This document shows, piece by piece, positions 10,817-22,306 of a DNA stretch of 64,000 bases. The notes under the pieces were generated by a model. That model was not told the DNA's origin and made no database searches. It saw only the letters and a list, made by a program, of their open reading frames with translations. The first letter of the stretch is position 1, and the number at the start of each line of letters is the position of its first letter. The position numbers and the translations under genes are program-made. Origin of the DNA: Flavobacteriaceae bacterium GSB9 (lineage in GTDB: Bacteria > Bacteroidota > Bacteroidia > Flavobacteriales > Flavobacteriaceae). The stretch spans positions 2,666,001 to 2,730,000 of the forward strand of contig CP062007.1 of NCBI GenBank assembly GCA_022749295.1. Reading direction: 5' to 3'.

Positions 10817-13192
10817 ATGGATATTAATACAGGAATTGAATCCCCGTTATTGCTAAACGTTAGTTTTAATAAATTGTTAGAGCAATACGAGACTTTAGCA
10901 GAAGGAGACAACGAGTTTGTAGCGGCCAAGGCAAAGCGTATTTTAAAAAGCGTTGAAGCCTACCCAGAATTGCGTAATGGTTTTAGTGAAACGTCTGTTT
11001 TAAAAGAACGCGCCAACGAAATTCGTTTTGTGCTTCAAGATACGTTTAGTCCGTTATTAACCAATAATGAAATTAAAACGGCATCGGTGCCGCTACATAA
11101 TTTAATTTTTAATTCGTCAGAGCGCTTCAAAAACATTATCAAAACGGCCGGTGATAACTTCGAGCTTCAAATAAAAAACATGCCTCAAGACGATACCTAT
11201 ATTATCGCCTGTACCATTATTCTAAATTTTTATTATGGTTATAATCTTAATTTTAAAAGACCGTTTTTCTACGAAATACCCGATGTGAATGGCATAAAGC
11301 GCTATTATAAGATTTTGTACAACGGTGATTTTTGTGAAATTATTCCAACGGAAAGGGCCAAAAAAATTACAAAAGGTGATTTTGATGAACTATTGGACAA
11401 TTTTGAAAATATAGATTTATGGCGAGAAAAATTTCCGCCCCAAAGTTATATTTTTAAGGGTTTTGTAATATCCAATATTTTTGATGTTACCGATGATCAA
11501 TCGATATCAAACATAAAATCGAGCCTTATTGTTGGTGGTAAGCGCAATGATGAGGGGTTTATGGATAATTTTGAAGAGATTTTCCGCTCATTATTGGGGA
11601 TAAAAAATCTTAGGGCCGGTTTTTCTTTATATAACAAAGAAGAAAGTACATTTGAGTGTGTACACAATTCTGGCTTGCACAGTTTTTTGTTAGGAAATAA
11701 CGATAGCGCAAAATGTCTGGAAGTGATGTGTGGACAATCTTACAAAAGCCTAATGACTGAAAAGAAGTACATTACTGTATCCAACGTAGATAAAATGCTT
11801 AGTGGTACCGAACAACAGCCTCATATTGTTCGTTTGAACAAACAAGGTATAAAAAGCGCTATTTTTGCACCTATTGCCAATGATGATGGTGTTATGGGGG
11901 TTTTAGAAATCGTATCAACCCAACCCATGGTGTTAAACAGTATAAATGCCAATAAATTGGTTGATGTTATGCCATTTATAGTGTCTGCGGTTGAACGTTC
12001 AAAAAACGAAGAGCAAAATACTATTGAAGCCATAATACAGCAAGAATGTACATCAATACATTCCAGTGTTTATTGGAAATTTGTTGCAGCTGCACGTCAG
12101 TTTTTAAAGGATAAATCGGTCATAGGTAGCAAGGCTGCGTTTCAGGAAATTGTTTTTGATGATATATATCCTCTATTTGGGCAAATAGATGTCAAAGGCT
12201 CTTCCGAAGCCCGGAATTTGGCTACCCAAAAAGACCTTCTGCTTCAACTATCATTGGCCGAAAACATAGTTTCCCAAATTAGTAAACTTGAACCTTTACC
12301 AATCTATGAAGAAATTCTTTTTCAAATAAGGAGTTTTGTTAATAGTCTTAAAACAGATTTCAAAGTAGATAGTGAACATGGTATAGTGGCTTTCTTAAAA
12401 AAAGATATTGAGCCTTTACTAGAATATCAGTTGGAAAAGAATGAAGGTTTAAAGCAGGAAATACGTGGTTATTTTGAAAGGGTAGATAGCGATTTAAACA
12501 TGGTGTATCACCATCGTAAACGTTATGATGAAACCATAATGCTTATAAACAAAAACATGGCTTCTATATTAGATGAAAAGCAAAAAGCAGCCCAGGCCAT
12601 GTACCCGCATTATTTTGAGCGTTTTAAAACAGACGGTGTAGAGCATAACATGTATATTGGTGAGTCTATTACCAAGACCGATAGTTTTAATCCAGTCTAT
12701 TTGTACAACCTAAGGCTTTGGCAATTGCAGGTAATGTGCGAAATGGAAAACGAATATTACAGTAATCAGCACTTATACCCAATAACGCTCGATGTAGCCT
12801 CCATGATATTGGTTTTTAATCAACCCCTTTCCATAAGGTTTAGAATGGACGAAAAACAATTTGATGTAGACGGTACCTACAATGCGCGCTACGAAGTAGT
12901 TAAAAAACGTGTAGATAAGGCCTTTATAAAAGGTACTCAAGAGCGCATTACGCAAAATGGAAAAATTACCATAGTGTATTCGCAAAAAGAAGACGAAGAA
13001 GAATATTTAAGATACATCAGGTTTTTTCAAAGTAAAAAAGCATTAAATAAAGATGTCGAAATTTTAGAGTTGGAAGATTTACAGGGTGTTACAGGTTTAA
13101 AAGCCATTAGGGTTGGTATTCTTTATCATAACAAAAATGATGATGAAGCCCTTTACACTTATGATGATTTAATGAAAGAAATTAAAGTTTAA
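10817..13192 (+). CDS. GAF domain protein of unknown function
   Basis: A 791-residue protein with no signal peptide. A GAF-like sensory domain spans about residues 250-395, recognisable from the pattern around GIKSAIFAPIANDDGVMGVL. The long C-terminal part is mostly helical and shows no catalytic signature (no histidine kinase, cyclase, GGDEF or phosphatase motif). It resembles a conserved cytosolic protein of flavobacteria, but I cannot assign a function. Its 3' end overlaps the convergent HD/DUF5706 gene by four bases. A near-consensus -7 box (TAATTTTA, 10787-10794) lies 22 bases before the start. Confidence 0.75.
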   Translation: MDINTGIESPLLLNVSFNKLLEQYETLAEGDNEFVAAKAKRILKSVEAYPELRNGFSETSVLKERANEIRFVLQDTFSPLLTNNEIKTASVPLHNLIFNSSERFKNIIKTAGDNFELQIKNMPQDDTYIIACTIILNFYYGYNLNFKRPFFYEIPDVNGIKRYYKILYNGDFCEIIPTERAKKITKGDFDELLDNFENIDLWREKFPPQSYIFKGFVISNIFDVTDDQSISNIKSSLIVGGKRNDEGFMDNFEEIFRSLLGIKNLRAGFSLYNKEESTFECVHNSGLHSFLLGNNDSAKCLEVMCGQSYKSLMTEKKYITVSNVDKMLSGTEQQPHIVRLNKQGIKSAIFAPIANDDGVMGVLEIVSTQPMVLNSINANKLVDVMPFIVSAVERSKNEEQNTIEAIIQQECTSIHSSVYWKFVAAARQFLKDKSVIGSKAAFQEIVFDDIYPLFGQIDVKGSSEARNLATQKDLLLQLSLAENIVSQISKLEPLPIYEEILFQIRSFVNSLKTDFKVDSEHGIVAFLKKDIEPLLEYQLEKNEGLKQEIRGYFERVDSDLNMVYHHRKRYDETIMLINKNMASILDEKQKAAQAMYPHYFERFKTDGVEHNMYIGESITKTDSFNPVYLYNLRLWQLQVMCEMENEYYSNQHLYPITLDVASMILVFNQPLSIRFRMDEKQFDVDGTYNARYEVVKKRVDKAFIKGTQERITQNGKITIVYSQKEDEEEYLRYIRFFQSKKALNKDVEILELEDLQGVTGLKAIRVGILYHNKNDDEALYTYDDLMKEIKV

Positions 13193-14466
13193 GCAGCAAA
13201 CAGGTATGCGGTTACGTTCGTTTTTCGTGTTTCATGGTCATATAAAAATGATGTAGGGTCTTCTGGCAAAACACTTTCTATTTCTGCACCATTGCTTTTT
13301 AACGCTATTCCAAAGGAAATAACAGAAATAATCATCCCAATCATAAAAATGGTATAGGTAATTCTTAAGATTCTGTATTTTCGTTCCAGTACTTTTCCAA
13401 GAAAATAAAGGTCTTTGGTAAGCGATTTATAAACATAGTTTTTGTCCTTTAACAATTCGCTAACGGCCCACTCGTACTCTTTGAGGCCCATTTTATGGAA
13501 ATTACCAAAAAAAGTAAGGTTTACCTCTTTATTGGCTACGTCCTCTTTAGTGAATTCGCCACTTGTTACGTTTGGCCTGGTAGCAATAATGGATAATACC
13601 ATAGATATTACACAAGACAACGTGAAAATAGCTGTTGGGTAAATTAAATATGGGTTATTGTCAAGTTTAGAGATTAGGTTTGCCAACACTAGCGAAATAA
13701 TAATAGCATTTACCGAAAGTAAAATATTGGCTTTGGTATCTGCAATATCGCTCAATTTTATATGGTTGCGTAAAGCCACTCTATAAAATGTTTGTATGCC
13801 GCGCTCGGGGCTTTCGTTTTTATATTGCGCCTTATACTTAGCTTTTATTTCTTCTCTTAGCAGCTTCTCTTTTTGCTTTTTCTTTGCCTTAATGAGTTTA
13901 GATAGGTTTTTTTCCTTCTCCTTTTGCCAGTTTTTCAAGGCGTAATCTGTGTAGAATTCATGCTTTTTGGTCAGTACTTTTATGTTTTCGTTAAGCCACT
14001 CAGATGGCGAATAGGTTTTTATGCCTTGAATTTCAAGTTCTTTTCTTAAAAACTCACTGGCTTCAGAAAAGTATGCTTTCCCAAAATGGGAAGAGTCTGC
14101 ATCTCTCAGTATTTTACCAATTTCGGTTTTAGGTACAATTTTGAGTTTTGTAGCTATAATGCATGAACTTACAGCCTCTATAGTTTCAGTGTCAACGTTA
14201 TTTTCCTTTAAAAAGGCCGTGGCTATTTTTACACTTTCTTCTTCGTGGTTCTCGTGTGTTTTCGTGTAGCCCGTATCGTGCAATAGTGCTGCAAGTTCTA
14301 TTGTTTCAGCATCTTTTTTGTCTATGTCGGAATGTTCAATTATTTCTCTGGCACTTCGTAATACACGCTCGGTATGGGTATGGTTATGGTATAAAAATGT
14401 ACTATCCAGTTTTTGCTTAAATAACTCAAAAACAAACTTTTCTGTAGCTTCTATTAATTTCGACAT
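13189..14466 (-). CDS. HD phosphohydrolase fused to a Pycsar-effector-like membrane module (DUF5706)
   Basis: A 425-residue two-part protein. Residues 1-130 form an HD domain with an intact metal set: His near 31, the His63-Asp64 pair, His71/74 and Asp122/124 in LRDADSSHFG. A Lys/Glu-rich helical linker (about 180-215) follows. The C-terminal half matches DUF5706: it opens with SDIADTKANILLSVNA, has helices at about 247-266 and 275-295, an ATRP phrase, and a third helix at about 370-390. DUF5706 is the PycTM effector of Pycsar anti-phage systems, where cCMP or cUMP triggers membrane damage. No cyclase gene is beside it, so defence is not shown. The HD domain could hydrolyse or sense a nucleotide. 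Confidence 0.82.
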   Translation of the reverse strand: MSKLIEATEKFVFELFKQKLDSTFLYHNHTHTERVLRSAREIIEHSDIDKKDAETIELAALLHDTGYTKTHENHEEESVKIATAFLKENNVDTETIEAVSSCIIATKLKIVPKTEIGKILRDADSSHFGKAYFSEASEFLRKELEIQGIKTYSPSEWLNENIKVLTKKHEFYTDYALKNWQKEKEKNLSKLIKAKKKQKEKLLREEIKAKYKAQYKNESPERGIQTFYRVALRNHIKLSDIADTKANILLSVNAIIISLVLANLISKLDNNPYLIYPTAIFTLSCVISMVLSIIATRPNVTSGEFTKEDVANKEVNLTFFGNFHKMGLKEYEWAVSELLKDKNYVYKSLTKDLYFLGKVLERKYRILRITYTIFMIGMIISVISFGIALKSNGAEIESVLPEDPTSFLYDHETRKTNVTAYLFAA

Positions 14467-14626: not shown

Positions 14627-15088
14627 ATGATAACTTGGAAAGATATTATAAATTTTTCTGTAAATGGAAACCCAGAGCCAGAAAAACGGGTTGAAAAAAC
14701 CGAAGCTGAATGGAAGTCGCAATTAACACCCGAACAGTTTAGAATAACTAGGCTTAAAGGTACCGAGCGTCCACATAGTGGCGCGCTTTGTTCAGTTTAT
14801 GCAGCAGGAAAGTATAGCTGTGTGTGCTGCAATACGCCACTTTTCGACTCTACAATAAAGTTTAATTCGGGCACCGGGTGGCCTAGTTTTACCCAACCCA
14901 TAAAAGAAAATGCTATCAAATATGAAAGAGACACCACATTGGGTATGGTAAGGGTTGAGGTTATGTGCAATACCTGCGATGCACATCTAGGACATGTATT
15001 TCCCGATGGGCCAGAGCCAAGTGGTTTAAGATATTGTATTAATTCAGAATCTATGCAATTAGAAAAGGAAACAACAAATGACAAATAA
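14627..15088 (+). CDS. msrB: Peptide-methionine (R)-S-oxide reductase MsrB
   Basis: A 153-residue MsrB that reduces methionine-R-sulfoxide in proteins. The zinc site is formed by two CxxC pairs (Cys65/68 and Cys114/117). The catalytic Cys137 sits in RYCINS, and the substrate block GTGWPSF is present at about 82-88. Cys55 could be the resolving residue. There is no signal peptide, so it acts in the cytosol. It overlaps msrA by 11 bases and leads a four-gene redox operon. Confidence 0.95.
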   Translation: MITWKDIINFSVNGNPEPEKRVEKTEAEWKSQLTPEQFRITRLKGTERPHSGALCSVYAAGKYSCVCCNTPLFDSTIKFNSGTGWPSFTQPIKENAIKYERDTTLGMVRVEVMCNTCDAHLGHVFPDGPEPSGLRYCINSESMQLEKETTNDK

Positions 15089-15620
15089 AAATTTACAAGT
15101 AGCTACCGTTGGTGGTGGATGTTTTTGGTGTACCGAAGCGGTATTCCAAGAAATACAAGGCGTTAAAAAAGTAATATCTGGGTATTCTGGAGGTAATGCT
15201 CCGGGGCATCCAACCTATCGTGAGGTTTGCTCGGGACTAACGGGGCATGCTGAGGTGGTGCAAATCACCTTTGATGCTAACATTATTTCTTATGAAGATA
15301 TATTGTTCATTTTCATGACTACCCACGACCCAACCACATTAAATAGGCAAGGTGGAGACCACGGTACGCAGTACCGTTCGGTTATTTTTTATCATGATGA
15401 AAGCCAAAAAGCTACAGCCGAGAATATTATGGATAAGGTGTCACCTTATTATGATGACCCCATAGTTACTGAAATAAAGGCGTTGGATGTATTCTATGAA
15501 GCCGAAGGTTACCACCAAAACTATTATCGCAATAATACCACAGAAGGCTTTTGTAGTTTTGTAATAACGCCAAAATTGGCAAAATTAAGAAAGCTACATG
15601 CCGATAAACTGAGCACATGA
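15078..15620 (+). CDS. msrA: Peptide-methionine (S)-S-oxide reductase MsrA
   Basis: A 180-residue MsrA with the catalytic GCFWCTE motif (nucleophile Cys15) and the other family blocks: SGYSGG, GHAEVVQITFD, and GGDHGTQYRS with the Asp and Tyr that bind the sulfoxide. It repairs the S epimer and complements MsrB. Its stop overlaps the selO start by four bases. No export signal is visible, so the operon serves cytosolic proteins. Confidence 0.96.
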   Translation: MTNKNLQVATVGGGCFWCTEAVFQEIQGVKKVISGYSGGNAPGHPTYREVCSGLTGHAEVVQITFDANIISYEDILFIFMTTHDPTTLNRQGGDHGTQYRSVIFYHDESQKATAENIMDKVSPYYDDPIVTEIKALDVFYEAEGYHQNYYRNNTTEGFCSFVITPKLAKLRKLHADKLST

Positions 15621-17176
15621 AACTTAATATAAACGATAGATTTAATATTGATTTACCCGCAGATTCTTTAAAAGAGAATTCAAGACGGCAGGTGTTAAAT
15701 GCATGTTATTCTTATGTTTCTCCAAAAAAAACTTCAAACCCAGAATTGATACACGTTTCACCAGAAATGTTGGAAAGCCTAGGTATTCAAGAGAATGAAG
15801 TTAAGAGTGAAACGTTTTTGAATCTGTTCACTGGAAACGAAATATATCCAAATACCCAACCTTATGCCATGTGTTATGGCGGACATCAATTTGGTAATTG
15901 GGCAGGACAGTTGGGCGATGGCCGCGCCATAAACCTTTTTGAGATAGAGCATGAAAATAAACATTGGATGGTTCAATTAAAAGGGGCGGGCGAAACGCCG
16001 TATTCGCGTTCAGCTGATGGGCTGGCCGTGCTACGCTCATCCATACGGGAGTATTTGTGCAGCGAGGCCATGTTCCATTTGGGAGTTCCTACAACTAGGG
16101 CTTTATCGTTGGCTTTAACCGGCGATAGCGTTTTGCGCGATGTCATGTACGATGGCAATCCGGCTTATGAAAAAGGTGCTATAGTGACTCGTGTGGCAAC
16201 AAGTTTTTTACGGTTTGGTAGCTATCAAATATTTGCTGCAAGACAGGATTATGATACCCTAAAAACGTTGGTTGATTTCACCATAGAACACCATTTTTCG
16301 CATTTGGGAGCACCTTCAAAGAATAGTTATATCGAGTTTTTTAAAGCGGTCTCAGAACGCACTCTCGATATGATTATCCATTGGCAACGCGTAGGATTTG
16401 TGCATGGTGTGATGAATACCGATAACATGTCTGTTTTAGGGCTTACTATCGATTACGGTCCGTATGGTTGGTTAGAAGGTTTCGATTATGGTTGGACACC
16501 GAATACTACAGATAGCCAACATAAACGTTACCGTTATGGAAATCAGCCCAATATCGGACTATGGAATTTATACCAATTGGCTAATACACTTTATCCTTTA
16601 GTGGAAGAAGCCGAGCCTTTTCAAACGATTTTAGATGACTATAAAACAAAATTTGATGCGAAGTCTTTAAAGATGATGCAATCTAAATTGGGCTTAGTTG
16701 AAGACGATGTTTTCGATAAATCACTAATTCAAGAATTGGAAGACAACCTCTTGCTTGCCGAAACCGATATGACTATTTTCTTTAGAAGTTTAAGCAATTT
16801 TAAACCTGACACTTCCGAAGGACTGAAGATTGTAGAAAAGGCATTTTATAACCTAGATGAACTTTCAGAAGACATTAAACAAAAATGGAACAATTGGTTT
16901 AATCGTTATGCATCGAGGTTGAATTTGGAAGCGCTTTCCAATGAATCGCGTAAGGAAAAAATGAATTTAGTAAACCCCAAATATGTGCTTAGAAACTACA
17001 TGGCCCAATTGGCTATTGACGATGCCGAAAAAGGGGATTACAAATTAATTGATGAACTGTTTCAACTTTTAAAAAAGCCCTATTCCGAGCAACCCGAATA
17101 CGAAAAATGGTATGCTAAAAGACCAGAGTGGGCGCGCCATAAAGTAGGCTGTTCTATGTTGTCGTGCAGTTCGTAA
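15617..17176 (+). CDS. selO: Protein adenylyltransferase SelO (YdiU/UPF0061)
   Basis: A 519-residue pseudokinase-fold enzyme that attaches AMP to Ser, Thr or Tyr of target proteins. The family block LKGAGETPYSR contains Lys122, and SSIREYLCSEAM follows. The active-site loop is MNTDNMS (Asn267, Asp269, Asn270), with the metal Asp279 in IDYGPYG. The C-terminus ends CSMLSCSS (Cys512 and Cys517), matching the redox-sensitive tail where some homologues carry selenocysteine. E. coli SelO is linked to oxidative stress and protein glutathionylation, which fits its place between methionine sulfoxide reductase genes. It overlaps msrA by four bases. Confidence 0.94.
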   Translation: MKLNINDRFNIDLPADSLKENSRRQVLNACYSYVSPKKTSNPELIHVSPEMLESLGIQENEVKSETFLNLFTGNEIYPNTQPYAMCYGGHQFGNWAGQLGDGRAINLFEIEHENKHWMVQLKGAGETPYSRSADGLAVLRSSIREYLCSEAMFHLGVPTTRALSLALTGDSVLRDVMYDGNPAYEKGAIVTRVATSFLRFGSYQIFAARQDYDTLKTLVDFTIEHHFSHLGAPSKNSYIEFFKAVSERTLDMIIHWQRVGFVHGVMNTDNMSVLGLTIDYGPYGWLEGFDYGWTPNTTDSQHKRYRYGNQPNIGLWNLYQLANTLYPLVEEAEPFQTILDDYKTKFDAKSLKMMQSKLGLVEDDVFDKSLIQELEDNLLLAETDMTIFFRSLSNFKPDTSEGLKIVEKAFYNLDELSEDIKQKWNNWFNRYASRLNLEALSNESRKEKMNLVNPKYVLRNYMAQLAIDDAEKGDYKLIDELFQLLKKPYSEQPEYEKWYAKRPEWARHKVGCSMLSCSS

Positions 17177-17177
17177 T

Positions 17178-17702
17178 ATGGCTGCTTTAAGTAAAATAGC
17201 GTTTGGTGGTGGTTGCCATTGGTGTACCGAAGCAGTGTTTCAATCGTTATTTGGTGTGGAGCAGGTCGAGCAAGGTTTTGTCGCTTCAAAAGATGAAAAC
17301 CGAGCCTTTTCTGAGGCGGTTATTGTTCACTTCAATCCAAAGCAAATTCATCTTGAAACGTTAATTGAAATTCATTTGAATACCCATAAAAGATCGTCTT
17401 TACATTCCATGCGAAAAAAATACCGTTCGGCTATTTATACTTTTACAAACCAACAGGCTTTAATTTGTAAAAGGCATCTTTCAGATTTGCAAGACTGTTT
17501 CAAAACAGAAATTATAACCCGAGTGATGCCATTTAAAAGTTTTAAACCTTCAAGGAAACAAATACAAAATTATTATTTCAGCAACCCAGAGAAGCCATTT
17601 TGCAAAACATATATAAATCCAAAATTACAGTTGCTTATTAACAGTTATTCTGGTGTTGTTAACCATAATCGGTTAGCACATTTGAAAAATCAGAAAAAAT
17701 AA
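17178..17702 (+). CDS. Divergent MsrA-like protein
   Basis: A 174-residue MsrA paralogue that starts one base after the selO stop. The nucleophile region is GGCHWCTE (Cys13, with His in place of the usual Phe). The GHAE block is degraded to FSEAVIVHFNP, keeping the Glu. The DxGTQYRS block has become SMRKKYRS, which keeps Tyr but loses the conserved Asp. The YYF and PFC sequences near the C-terminus are retained. It may therefore be a reductase with altered substrate choice, or a partner or sensor for SelO or MsrA. The ordinary msrA lies two genes upstream, so this copy is free to diverge. Confidence 0.82.
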   Translation: MAALSKIAFGGGCHWCTEAVFQSLFGVEQVEQGFVASKDENRAFSEAVIVHFNPKQIHLETLIEIHLNTHKRSSLHSMRKKYRSAIYTFTNQQALICKRHLSDLQDCFKTEIITRVMPFKSFKPSRKQIQNYYFSNPEKPFCKTYINPKLQLLINSYSGVVNHNRLAHLKNQKK

Positions 17703-17806: not shown

Positions 17807-20800
17807 ATGAAAACAGTTAGATGTATACTGGCTTTGGTGTTATTTTTTGTTGTAGGTGCGTGTGCAACTTATAAGCCGCAGTATGCCAATGAATATCATG
17901 ATGATGTTACTTTTCCTAATAAAGAGGTAGATAAAACATTTTATTTAATTGGGGATGCAGGTTTGTCGCCTTCCGGGGGTATGTCTAAAGCCTTAAAAGC
18001 TTTCAATAAACATATTATTGGAACTTCAAAAGAAGAGGATTATGTTCTTTTTTTGGGAGATAACGTTTACCCTTCTGGTTTGCCCAAAAAGGATGATAAG
18101 AACAGGGTAACCGCCGAAAATGGATTGCATGCCCAGATAAATGCCGTCAAAAATTTTAAAGGCGAGGTTCTTTTCATTCCGGGAAATCATGATTGGTATG
18201 CCAATGGGTTAAAGGGGTTAAAACGGCAAGAAGAATACATAGAAGATGCTTTGGGGAAAAACACGTTTCAACCAGAAAATGGTTGTCCGCTTGAAAGCAT
18301 TGATATTGGTGAAACCATACAATTAATTATTATCGATACGCAGTGGTATCTTGAAAATTGGAACCACCACCCAGCGATAAACGACAAGTGTGAGATAAAA
18401 ACGAGAGAACGTTTTTTGCAGGAAGTAGAGGGTGAGTTAAAAAAAGCTCAAAATAAAACCATTGTGTTTGCTATGCATCACCCTATGTATACAAATGGTA
18501 TCCACGGCGGAAACTATGCGATTAATAAACATCTTTACCCGTTACAAAAAAAAATACCAATGCCTGGCATCGCCTCGTTGGTGGCTCAAATACGAACGCA
18601 AGGCGGAGTATCTCCGCAGGATAGGTATAACGAGCGCTATCAAGAGCTAATGAGCCGATTGGAAACTATGGCTATCGATTCCAAAAACCTTGTGTTTGTT
18701 TCTGGACATGAGCATACTTTACAATATATTGAGGGGGAAGGTGTAAAGCAAATTGTTGCAGGGTCTGGTGCCAAAGAATCTTCTGTTGGCTTGAAAAATA
18801 ACGGACTGTTTTCATATGGGAAACAAGGGTTTTCCGAGTTAACGGTTTTTAAGGACGGAAGCAGTTGGGCAAGGTATTTTGGAGAGGAAAATGGCGAACC
18901 CAAATTATTGTTTACAACTGAAGTTCACCCACCTAAAACATCGTATGATGTTTCAGAACTACCGGATACTTTTCCAAAAACTGTAGAAGTCTCCATTTAT
19001 TCAAAGGAAGAAACCGATGTTTCAGGTTTTTTTAAATCTGTTTGGGGCGATCACTATCGCGATGTTTACAGCACAAAAATAAAGGCGAAAGTTGCTACTT
19101 TGGATACGCTTTTTGGTGGCTTGGAAATTGTTAGAAAAGGAGGTGGGCATCAAACACGTTCGTTGCGGTTAAAAACAAAAGATGGCCATGAACTCAACAT
19201 GAGAGCCTTGAGAAAGAGTGCCACACAATACTTGCAAACTGTACTTTTTAAGGATACTTACGTGCAAGACGAGTTTGAAAAAACAGCGGTAGAAGAACTT
19301 ATTTTGGATTTTTACACAGCAGCCCATCCTTATGCGTTTATGGTTGTTCCAGAGTTGTCTGATGCCGTAAGTGTAATGCACACCAATCCGAATCTGTTTT
19401 TTATACCTAAGCATAAACATTTGGGCGATTTCAATGAAGAATATGGTGGCGAACTTTATATGGTTGAAGAACGTCCCGAAAAAAGTTATGCTAAACAAAA
19501 AACTTTTGGTTATGCTAACGATATTGAGAGTACACATGATATTATTGAAAAAATAAGAGAAGATGAAGAACATAAAATTGAAGAAAATGCCTTTATAAAG
19601 GCGCGTTTGTTCGATATGCTTATAGGCGATTGGGACAGACATCAAGACCAATGGCGTTGGGCACAGTTTGATATGGATAACGGTGACCATTTTTATAGAC
19701 CGATTCCGCGCGATAGAGATCAGGTGTTCTCTAATTTTGATGGAGCATTGCTTGATGTGATGCGCATTATTTCTGGTTCAACAAAGCAACTTCAAGTTTA
19801 CGACGAGACCCTCAAGAATATAAATTGGATGAACAGTGCAGGTATTAAATTAGACCGCATTTTAGTTCAAAAATCAGAAAAAGACACCTGGGTTGAACAA
19901 GCAAAATTTATTCAAGAACACCTTACAGATGCCGTTATAGATAAAGCTTTTTTAAAGGTTCCTAAAGCAGTTCAAGACAAAACATTAAGCCAGGTAAAAG
20001 AAAAGCTTAAGGGAAGGCGGGACAATCTTCGGGATATTGCCGAACGATATTACAATCATTTAAATAAATTGGTGATTTTAACGGGCACCGATAAAGACGA
20101 CTATTTTGAAATAACACGAAAGAATAATGACGAAACCCATGTGAAAATCACTCGTATAATTGATGGCGAAAAGGATAAGGTTATTGTAGATCGAACCTTT
20201 AATAAAGGAATTACTAAAGAAATATGGGTTTATGGGCTCGACGATAAGGATGTGTTTGAGGTTAAAGGTAAAACGAACAAGTATATTTTTATGAGGCTCA
20301 TTGGTGGACAGGATAACGACTCGTACATCATAAGAAATGGTAAACGTATTAGGGTTTACGACCATAAGAGCAAAAAAAATACGATTAAGGAAAATAAGGG
20401 TGCACGAATAAGATTAACGGATATTTACGGGTTAAACCTATTCGATTTTAATAAAAACATTACAAAAACTAGCTTAATTACTCCTGCGATTGGTTTTAAT
20501 CCTGATGATGGATTTTTAGTGGGATTATCTTATGCTTTAACAACTAAAGGGTTTCAGCGTAACCCTTTTTCGAGGCAACATAAATTTAAAGGTGGGTATT
20601 ATTTCGCTACTGGAGGATTTTCCCTTGATTACAATGGGGAGTTTGCTAATGTTTTTGGTGATTGGAACTTGCATGTTGGCAGCCAGTTTACTTCCGAAAA
20701 CTACACTAATAATTTTTTTGGATATGGAAACGAAACGAAAAACAATGATGGTGAACTCGGTTTGGATTTCAATCGTGTTAAAACAGGTGTTTACGCATTA

Positions 20801-21511
20801 AATGCAGGCGTTTTTAAAAAAGGCGATTTTGGTAGCAACTATGGTGTTAGGGCTGTTTTTGAAGGAATAGAAATAGAAGACACCGAAAATCGTTTTATAG
20901 CTGATTTTGTACCAATAAGTAATTCCAATTTTTACAAACGACGTTTTTTTGGAGGCCTCGAAGCCCAGTTTGATTATCAAAGTTACGACGATAAAATAAA
21001 CCCGAAAAGAGGGATGGTTTTTAATTTTCAAATTGGAGGTAAAACCGAGTTTAAGGAAACAAAAAACACCTATGGTTACCTAAATTCCAGTATTGGCTTC
21101 TATAATGCGTTAACCACAAATAAAAAATTGGTTTTAAAATCCGATTTGCGAACCCAATGGCGAATGGGAGACGATTTGCTGTTTTACCAAGCGGCCAATA
21201 TAGGTGGCGATAATGGCCTCCGCGGTTATAGAACCGAACGTTTTACTGGTAAAAATGCATTGGTTGGTAGTACCGATTTGCGGTACAGTTTCCCATCTTT
21301 TAAAACGAGAACATTGCCGTTTCAAATTGGTGTTTTTGGTGGTGCCGATGTTGGGCGCGTATGGCTAAAGAATGATTTTTCTGAAAAATGGCACAACGAT
21401 TACGGTGGTGGTTTTTGGATTACAGCAGCTGAAAGTCTTTCTGGAACGTTCAACTTTTTTAATAGCGTGGAAGGTTTAAGGTTTTCTTTTGCGTTTGGTT
21501 TAAATTTTTAA
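17807..21511 (+). CDS. Lipoprotein metallophosphatase with kinase-like middle region and Omp85-type barrel
   Basis: A 1234-residue envelope protein. A lipobox (VGAC, Cys19) ends the signal sequence. Residues 45-330 form a calcineurin-like phosphatase with all metal motifs: IGDAG (Asp50), GDN (84-86), GNHD (126-129), HH in FAMHHP, and GHEH (300-303). Residues about 385-700 are unassigned but contain GDWDRHQDQW (607-616) and PRDRDQVF (635-642), reminiscent of the catalytic and metal loops of atypical kinases. From about 880 to the end lies a BamA/TamA-like barrel with GGDNGLRGY near 1135. A near-consensus -7 box TATCTTTA (17778-17785) precedes the gene. The substrate is unknown. Confidence 0.8.
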   Translation: MKTVRCILALVLFFVVGACATYKPQYANEYHDDVTFPNKEVDKTFYLIGDAGLSPSGGMSKALKAFNKHIIGTSKEEDYVLFLGDNVYPSGLPKKDDKNRVTAENGLHAQINAVKNFKGEVLFIPGNHDWYANGLKGLKRQEEYIEDALGKNTFQPENGCPLESIDIGETIQLIIIDTQWYLENWNHHPAINDKCEIKTRERFLQEVEGELKKAQNKTIVFAMHHPMYTNGIHGGNYAINKHLYPLQKKIPMPGIASLVAQIRTQGGVSPQDRYNERYQELMSRLETMAIDSKNLVFVSGHEHTLQYIEGEGVKQIVAGSGAKESSVGLKNNGLFSYGKQGFSELTVFKDGSSWARYFGEENGEPKLLFTTEVHPPKTSYDVSELPDTFPKTVEVSIYSKEETDVSGFFKSVWGDHYRDVYSTKIKAKVATLDTLFGGLEIVRKGGGHQTRSLRLKTKDGHELNMRALRKSATQYLQTVLFKDTYVQDEFEKTAVEELILDFYTAAHPYAFMVVPELSDAVSVMHTNPNLFFIPKHKHLGDFNEEYGGELYMVEERPEKSYAKQKTFGYANDIESTHDIIEKIREDEEHKIEENAFIKARLFDMLIGDWDRHQDQWRWAQFDMDNGDHFYRPIPRDRDQVFSNFDGALLDVMRIISGSTKQLQVYDETLKNINWMNSAGIKLDRILVQKSEKDTWVEQAKFIQEHLTDAVIDKAFLKVPKAVQDKTLSQVKEKLKGRRDNLRDIAERYYNHLNKLVILTGTDKDDYFEITRKNNDETHVKITRIIDGEKDKVIVDRTFNKGITKEIWVYGLDDKDVFEVKGKTNKYIFMRLIGGQDNDSYIIRNGKRIRVYDHKSKKNTIKENKGARIRLTDIYGLNLFDFNKNITKTSLITPAIGFNPDDGFLVGLSYALTTKGFQRNPFSRQHKFKGGYYFATGGFSLDYNGEFANVFGDWNLHVGSQFTSENYTNNFFGYGNETKNNDGELGLDFNRVKTGVYALNAGVFKKGDFGSNYGVRAVFEGIEIEDTENRFIADFVPISNSNFYKRRFFGGLEAQFDYQSYDDKINPKRGMVFNFQIGGKTEFKETKNTYGYLNSSIGFYNALTTNKKLVLKSDLRTQWRMGDDLLFYQAANIGGDNGLRGYRTERFTGKNALVGSTDLRYSFPSFKTRTLPFQIGVFGGADVGRVWLKNDFSEKWHNDYGGGFWITAAESLSGTFNFFNSVEGLRFSFAFGLNF

Positions 21512-22306
21512 GCTAAAAGTGTATAAATTCCCGCCTTCACTTTTGTTTCTTTCATCGGTAATGTAAACACTTTTATTGTTCTTAAAGCAAACCCCTTCTT
21601 TTTGCGAATCGTGTTTAAATTCAAGTTCTTTTATGTGACCTTTAAAAAACGAATCCGATTCAAAGTTCGTTATTTTCCATAGTTTGTCGTGGTTTAAAAG
21701 CACAACGGTTTTGCCATCGTCACTAATATCGGCCGAAGTTATTTTGTGATGTTTCCCTTCAAGGTTAAAGTCAGCGATCAATTCAGCTGTATGTTCTCCA
21801 ACCGTATTAGGCACTTTTAATAAAATGCTCGTTTTGTTCTCTTTGCTAAAAATGTAAAAGTTGTCGTTAAAAAGAAAAAAGGCTTCAAAATCTTCTGTAT
21901 TTACACCCTTAGGAAGCCTAAATCCTATAGTTTTGGCTGTGGAATTATTTGTTTCAAAATCCGATACTTTATAAATTGTAAAATGTTTCCTTTTTTTATT
22001 GTTGTTTCCAAAATCGCCAATGTAAAGATGACCTTCGTGGTCTGATGTTAAATCTTCCCAATCAATATTTACGGCATTTTTAATATTTATGGTTTTTATT
22101 AAATTACCCCGCTTATTAAAGCCGTAAATAGTGCTTTCGTTTCCGGCATCTTCAATCGTCCAGAGTAAATCGGAATTCGTAATGGTTTCAACCGCCGAAG
22201 CTTCTTTTAATTGGCTTGGTAAATTTGCAACTACGTTTAGTTTTCCTGTATTACACGAACTTAACATAAATAAAACATACCATATTTTCGGAATCTGATA
22301 AACCAT
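21500..22306 (-). CDS. Beta-propeller-like lipoprotein
   Basis: A 268-residue protein with a short hydrophobic N-terminus ending in a lipobox (LSSC, Cys18). Repeated beta-strand-like units follow, with phrases such as WTIEDAGNES, DWEDLTSD and LYIGDFGNN. This is typical of six-bladed propeller proteins distantly related to phytase-like or SdiA-regulated proteins. No enzyme activity is evident. Its 3' end overlaps the phosphatase-barrel gene by 12 bases in a convergent arrangement. Confidence 0.7.
   Translation of the reverse strand: MVYQIPKIWYVLFMLSSCNTGKLNVVANLPSQLKEASAVETITNSDLLWTIEDAGNESTIYGFNKRGNLIKTINIKNAVNIDWEDLTSDHEGHLYIGDFGNNNKKRKHFTIYKVSDFETNNSTAKTIGFRLPKGVNTEDFEAFFLFNDNFYIFSKENKTSILLKVPNTVGEHTAELIADFNLEGKHHKITSADISDDGKTVVLLNHDKLWKITNFESDSFFKGHIKELEFKHDSQKEGVCFKNNKSVYITDERNKSEGGNLYTFSLKI

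Follow-up and report, generated by a model that had tools for sequence, protein, structure and literature searches.

The gene described here lies at 17807..21511, on the plus strand, of a 64,000-nucleotide stretch of DNA from Flavobacteriaceae bacterium GSB9 (contig CP062007.1), which we call the window. Its frame is open from end to end and encodes a product of 1,234 amino acids (aa), with a lipoprotein signal, a purple-acid-phosphatase-like domain, a domain of predicted kinase fold, a beta domain, and a BamA/TamA-like barrel. Features within the gene are on the same strand. The type II signal peptide (17807..17863), recognized from the sequence and from a rule-based lipobox pattern in relatives, ends in ...FFVVGAC, with the lipobox cysteine at position 19. 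A first, stricter pattern matched 45 of 117 full-length relatives and was judged too strict; a second placed a lipobox ahead of the phosphatase domain in 106 of the 117. Among the 11 that this rule missed, five carry CAT-type lipoboxes by eye (L024, L060, L092, L100, and L102), one is a truncated sequence (L028), and five have apparently ordinary signal peptides (L095, L163, L165, L166, and L174). A Pfam search of the full protein returned Metallophos (PF00149) at residues 44-242 (E = 2.9e-11) and ShlB (PF03865), an Omp85-type barrel end, at residues 1063-1190 (E = 5.4e-7), in agreement with an initial annotation of this DNA that had read metallophosphatase motifs and an Omp85-type barrel end from the letters. 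No Pfam family scored above cut-off in residues 243-1062. The structural model of residues 35-1234 had a predicted local distance difference test score (pLDDT) of 77.2 and a predicted template modeling score (pTM) of 0.73.

The phosphatase-like domain (residues 39-377; 17921..18937) was assigned from PF00149, a fold match, and its ligand motifs. A fold search with the full model matched human purple acid phosphatase (2bq8) over residues 39-377 (Z = 27.0, 269 residues, root-mean-square deviation [rmsd] 3.0). The ligand set of purple acid phosphatases is D, GDxxY, GNH(D/E), xxH, and GHxH. The window protein has this set complete, including the Tyr of GDxxY, as GDAG (D50), GDNVY (D85, Y88), GNHD (N127, H128), MHH (H224, H225), and GHEH (H301, H303). 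Among 51 representative sequences, D50 was kept in 43, D85 in 47, Y88 in 44, N127 in 46, H224 in 50, H301 in 49, and H303 in 43. The domain thus shares fold and ligands with purple acid phosphatase (TRAP), and differs in being bacterial, fused, and part of a predicted outer-membrane lipoprotein.

The Omp85 barrel (residues 895-1234; 20489..21508) was assigned from a BamA/TamA match of the full model over residues 887-1232 (Z = 22-23) and from an LRGYR motif at residues 1138-1142. Barrels of the Omp85 superfamily carry the motif (V/L)RG(Y/F), and (L/V/I/F)RG(Y/F) is present in 106 of 117 full-length relatives. The window protein scored 62.4 bits against NCBIfam Omp85_fam, under the cut-off of 200, and its Pfam search, read to E = 1, showed no POTRA profile. 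In the place of POTRA, linking the kinase-fold domain to the barrel, lies a beta-rich domain (residues 765-890; 20099..20476) with pLDDT mostly above 90, which carries GxDxxDxF and GGxxND motifs. In Omp85 barrel proteins the N-terminal part stays periplasmic. PlpD has an enzyme domain N-terminal to its Omp85 barrel, and this domain was found in the periplasm according to the available text of PMC11116518. By this topology and this precedent, the enzyme domains of the window protein probably face the periplasm. On the same grounds we rejected surface display and parted from the initial annotation, which had spoken of a surface protein and of export or display through the barrel.

We modeled residues 375-890 with AlphaFold2 from an alignment of 56 sequences (the query and 55 relatives at 42-82% identity); the mean pLDDT was 79.4 and the pTM 0.82. 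A VIA-align search with this model placed PI4K-IIalpha (4hnd) at the top (Z = 14.5, 254 residues, rmsd 4.3) and gave Z = 14.1 for CotH (5jd9; 249 residues, rmsd 3.8), 12.1 for CtkA, 11.0 for PI3K/VPS34, and 10.4 for both HipA and FAM20. Every one of the best 50 matches listed (Z = 14.5 to 9.7) is a kinase of the PI4K/CotH/HipA/FAM20 group. Foldseek gave weaker results with the same model: its top match was a FAM20-type Golgi casein kinase (E = 2.6e-4), with TM-scores of 0.2-0.3. Together with conservation, these searches place a predicted kinase fold of the PI4K/CotH/HipA/FAM20 type at residues 398-762 (18998..20092). The initial annotation had called this middle region kinase-like and proposed structure prediction and a fold search as the check; both, as run here, returned a kinase fold and not a non-kinase one, and the two motifs that it had singled out fall at the places of the catalytic and metal-binding Asp.

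Kinases in general follow the order P-loop, strand-3 base, catalytic loop, two strands, and DFG motif. The model and 47 representative sequences have the glycine loop, the strand-3 basic residue, the catalytic Asp, and the metal-binding Asp in this order: (i) a glycine-rich loop GGGHQT (residues 445-450; 19139..19156), the turn between predicted strands 439-444 and 452-457; (ii) Arg466 and Lys470 (19202..19216), which lie within the third predicted strand (462-467) or directly follow it; (iii) a helix followed by the catalytic-loop equivalent GDWDRHQDQW (residues 607-616; 19625..19654), with Asp610 as the candidate catalytic residue, and then strands 617-622 and 628-633; and (iv) the DFG-equivalent Asp-Arg-Asp (residues 636-638; 19712..19720), with Asp636 as the candidate metal ligand. 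Elements (iii) and (iv) were placed from the model, HHalign, and conservation. GDWDRHQDQW stands exactly where the initial annotation put it; the second motif that it named, PRDRDQVF, is present and its choice of Asp636 was right, at 634-641 and not at 635-642.

For conservation we reduced 135 core sequences to 47 representatives below 70% identity, leaving out matches that covered fewer than 300 model positions. Ten residues were kept in all 47 (Arg466, Lys470, Arg600, Asp603, Asp608, Trp609, Arg611, Trp616, Arg637, and Gly646), Asp610 and Asp638 in 46 each, Asp636 in 44, and His612 in 42; position 615 is Gln in 43, His in 3, and Asn in 1. Because Asp610, Arg611, Asp636, Arg637, and Asp638 are each kept in 44-47 of the 47, the two motifs are not chance resemblances. 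An HHalign comparison of the family with 11 CotH proteins from related genomes aligned no more than 61 columns, which make up the catalytic loop and, after it, the DFG equivalent; D610 and D636 each face an Asp of CotH. The CotH mutants D228Q and D251A are inactive, as given in the available portion of PMC7821199.

Sequence searches gave the kinase part no name. No Pfam or NCBIfam model recognized it in the full protein, nor did Pfam in 22 core sequences, and phmmer and hmmsearch against PDB sequences found the phosphatase as the sole credible match and none for the kinase part. For the window protein, CotH (PF08757) did not appear at E up to 1, nor was it among the best 25 of the 27 families listed for 22 members; HipA (PF07804) matched one of the 22 (E = 0.2), and FAM20C (PF06702) reached E = 0.24 in the core sequences, at 11.5 bits versus a cut-off of 26.8. 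FAM20C matches at E up to 1 in 19 of 118 Bacteroidota genomes, none above cut-off, were taken as chance, and PF04664 (E = 0.005) and PF10163 (E = 0.0022, two members), below cut-off or unrelated, were discarded likewise. The domain resembles CotH, a spore-coat kinase (5jd9, 5jda), in fold and in having a catalytic loop followed by an Asp motif. It differs in having no PF08757 match and in belonging to a Gram-negative envelope protein, where it is fused to a phosphatase and a barrel. Its top fold match, phosphatidylinositol 4-kinase type II, shares 8% identity with it; that enzyme is eukaryotic, works at the cytosolic face, and has a similar motif, Asp-Arg-x-x-Asp-(Asn/Gln)-Trp. FAM20C, the type found by Foldseek although its profile scored below cut-off, is an extracytoplasmic kinase, and FAM20A is a case of pseudokinase pairing.

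Of 296 Bacteroidota genomes that are at least 90% complete, 112 carry the kinase module. Its 138 matches comprise, by frame length, 81 full-length frames (at least 1,150 aa), 41 of 780-1,050 aa, 8 of 500-600, 5 of 420-440, and 3 others. The 117 distinct fetched proteins of at least 1,150 aa all combine phosphatase, kinase, and barrel. Thirteen shorter ones have the kinase with neither phosphatase nor barrel (7 of 480-779 aa, 6 below 480 aa), and 6 more fall in the remaining size bins, some of them cut-off frames; in copies of about 425 aa (L085-L087), one N-terminal hydrophobic stretch is followed by the kinase alone. A search of phages gave no match to the module, and a search of plasmids gave five records (CP012852.1, NZ_CP094537.1, NZ_CP037921.1, NZ_CP049908.1, and NZ_OY725747.1). 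These belong to Persicobacter, Hymenobacter, and Parabacteroides distasonis, all of which we take to be Bacteroidota, and their listed features read 'hypothetical protein'.

In two genomes, G093 (L121) and G288 (L120), the modules are three adjacent same-strand genes in the order kinase, phosphatase, barrel: a kinase lipoprotein of 519 or 518 aa, a phosphatase lipoprotein of 403 aa, and a free barrel of 388 aa, separated in L121 by gaps of 13 and 17 bases. The kinase, phosphatase, and barrel modules are genetically linked.

Diverged duplicates bear on whether both active sites are used. Tandem copies in Aequorivita (L073), Pukyongia (L076), and genome G014 (L101) have reciprocally lost kinase or phosphatase residues. 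One copy of each set is kinase-broken, with DREHW and an Asn or Ser at position 636, and keeps all phosphatase residues; the remaining copies keep all kinase residues and have lost phosphatase ligands. In the tree the three kinase-broken copies group with 100/100 support, as do three kinase-intact partners, and a further phosphatase-broken pair (the third copy of L101, and L094) lies beside these groups. The duplicates amount to a natural separation-of-function experiment. Other phosphatase-broken, kinase-intact copies are L093, L095, and the pair L021 and L074, which form a single clade. A second copy, intact at both sites, is present in each of the genomes that carry L093, L094, and L095. 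Both sites seem to matter, because reciprocal loss in duplicates is hard to explain otherwise. Judged by residue conservation and these losses, both active sites look used.

The reading that we favor, and consider rather probable, is an outer-membrane-anchored, periplasm-facing enzyme pair, in which a phosphatase and an atypical kinase oppose each other on shared or related substrates. The three folds, their order, the conservation of the active sites, and the linkage of the modules enter it as predictions; periplasmic location, activity of both sites, a shared substrate, and the donor are what we infer. A lipidated Cys19 and an Omp85 barrel in the outer membrane would tether the enzymes at that membrane's inner face, and with both ends so held the parts between them should face the periplasm. 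The first domain, a binuclear-metal, purple-acid-type phosphatase, would take phosphate off, and the second, the atypical kinase, would transfer it, with Asp610 as the catalytic and Asp636 as the metal-binding residue. Their shared or related substrates, in all likelihood an outer-membrane lipid, glycolipid, or protein, would be held at the barrel, and the two enzymes would set the phosphorylation state. The donor would be other than ordinary cytosolic ATP, with polyphosphate or scavenged nucleotides as conjectural candidates. Polyphosphate is a candidate because the gene for a polyphosphate kinase, PPK1, often adjoins the kinase module. Among 80 of the 112 module-bearing genomes, a selection thinned by hand, PPK1 lies within 10 kb of the module in 18 (11 of 25 families) and within 20 kb in 27; about 0.8 of the 80 would be expected within 10 kb by chance (0.78, assuming a genome of 4.2 Mb throughout). 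Two genomes, G110 and G204, have two PPK1 copies each, both adjoining a kinase-module gene (L165, L188, and L189).

Several observations weigh against this reading. The kinase activity of the window protein is putative, read from sequence and model. To our knowledge the periplasm has no ATP pool. Gln615 stands at the place of the metal-binding Asn of most kinases, and the HHalign probability was 2.7% for CotH and 0.7% for HipA, where the alignment was not useful. Confidence in the model is moderate near the catalytic and DFG loops (means of 50-87 over 10-residue blocks) and below 50 at residues 472-504. In G110, L188 has changes at the kinase and the phosphatase site alike, and two Gelidibacter copies have His or Asn at position 636. 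The phosphatase is lacking from all 19 distinct fetched proteins of 780-1,149 aa, which have kinase and barrel only. PPK1 lies far from the phosphatase-kinase gene in the window's own genome, and its mere presence carries no signal (75 of 80 genomes with the module versus 73 of 80 without, hand-picked from 112 and 184), so that adjacency alone is informative.

As a special case of the favored reading, the pair may be a lipid kinase and phosphatase that tunes an outer-membrane inositol lipid, sphingolipid, or lipid A. The top fold matches are lipid kinases (PI4K-II, Z = 14.5-14.1), and full-length and stand-alone forms are both membrane-anchored. However, the protein kinase CotH lies within 1 Z unit of them, and substrate cannot be read from fold; we regard the lipid version as a tentative possibility. 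A second explanation is a pseudokinase scaffold, whose kinase fold would bind nucleotide, lipid, or polyphosphate and regulate the phosphatase or barrel with no phosphate transfer. The apparent want of periplasmic ATP, the Gln in the catalytic loop, and the persistence in tandem of three broken-motif copies would all suit such a scaffold, but those copies occur alongside intact ones, Lys470, Asp610, and Asp636 are nearly invariant among the representatives (47, 46, and 44 of 47), and the catalytic residues are also kept in membrane-anchored stand-alone copies that lack the phosphatase. We consider it unlikely. Third, the protein could be a phosphate-scavenging channel, with the phosphatase freeing periplasmic organic phosphate, the barrel taking it up, and the kinase domain binding or trapping substrate. 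This accords with the purple acid phosphatase fold and with PPK1, SixA-type, and PAP2 phosphatase genes nearby, and we think it very unlikely, given that many matches have kinase plus barrel and no phosphatase (41 of 138, judged by length), that phosphatase-broken, kinase-intact copies recur, and that barrels of the BamA type are as a rule closed (the available part of PMC4104836 says so of BamA and TamA). Type Vd-like secretion, in which the enzymes would reach the cell surface through the barrel, as the PlpD-like layout of enzyme plus Omp85 barrel might suggest, is extremely unlikely: the PlpD enzyme domain is periplasmic (PMC11116518, as excerpted), and the barrel does not appear to translocate the enzymes in cis because in L120 and L121 these are lipoproteins in their own right, with the barrel as a free protein encoded next to them.

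The favored enzyme pair, if real, would mean that these bacteria both add and remove phosphate at their outer membrane, where no ATP supply is known. Its kinase-fold family, nameless in Pfam and NCBIfam, is found in more than a third of the sampled Bacteroidota genomes and is predicted to be outer-membrane-anchored beside a phosphatase; if active, it would raise the question of how bacteria phosphorylate where ATP is not known, and the recurrent PPK1 neighbor offers a testable donor. A broader claim strikes us as quite unlikely: that Bacteroidota possess an entire class of outer-membrane kinases that phosphorylate envelope lipid or protein from polyphosphate or some donor other than ATP, with the fused phosphatase working against them, in a reversible switch that lies at the outer membrane and beyond the reach of cytosolic ATP.

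The fusion of phosphatase and barrel was already known in 2014. Heinz and Lithgow described an Omp85 'Metallo' subfamily in which PF00149, called a metalloprotease, is fused to an Omp85 barrel, and discussed a periplasmic or exported enzyme (PMC4104836, available text). That text describes no kinase-fold domain and has no word starting with 'kinase' or 'phosph'. The 'Metallo' members are probably the family of the window protein. The name 'metalloprotease' is at odds with PF00149, because Pfam calls PF00149 a phosphoesterase, and our reading would correct this label for the class. PlpD, a patatin-Omp85 (type Vd) protein, is comparable in joining a periplasmic enzyme to an Omp85 barrel (in the text available), and differs in being a lipase with a POTRA domain and in having no kinase or phosphatase. 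Our searches of open-licence PubMed Central (PMC) papers found no description of the kinase part. The domain adds a new branch to an established fold group, within a class of membrane proteins already known. A Riemerella metallophosphoesterase, which may or may not belong to the same family, is listed as a type IX secretion system effector in excerpts of PMC10202324, and the available portion of PMC8115612 shows no sign of the window protein.

Several neighbors recur around the locus. A protein with an HD domain and a PycTM membrane domain is encoded at 13189..14466 on the minus strand (PF18967, 9.2e-38; PF01966, 4.5e-10), and a PycTM protein, often with HD, lies within 10 kb of the module in 52 of the 80 genomes and 19 of 25 families. 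A short lipoprotein gene at 21500..22306 (minus strand), whose own Pfam match is weak, is present in 49 of 80 near loci; genes similarly placed in L113, L115, L164, and L174 match the SdiA-regulated beta-propeller PF06977. The gene for a 791-aa protein at 10817..13192 (plus strand) is present in 44 of the 80, and a distant relative, L163:5269-7578, has a GAF domain (4e-7). We also clustered neighbors by blastp across 21 regions, the window and one from each of 20 genomes, a procedure that misses remote relatives. The recurring families were HD-PycTM (16 of 21 regions), propeller-like lipoprotein (12, the window's own copy falling outside the cluster), PPK1 (8), SixA-type phosphatase (7), PAP2 phosphatase (5), and class III cyclase (4). 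Class III adenylate/guanylate cyclase domains are at L166:12277-13605, L170:12273-13388, L175:10870-12798, and L180:12612-13658. Cyclase domains and PycTM proteins near the locus hint at cyclic-nucleotide control. Just upstream of the gene, at 14627-17702, MsrB-like, MsrA-like, SelO-like (YdiU), and further MsrA-like open reading frames, named by reading the sequence, stand in a row; SelO has a kinase-like fold.

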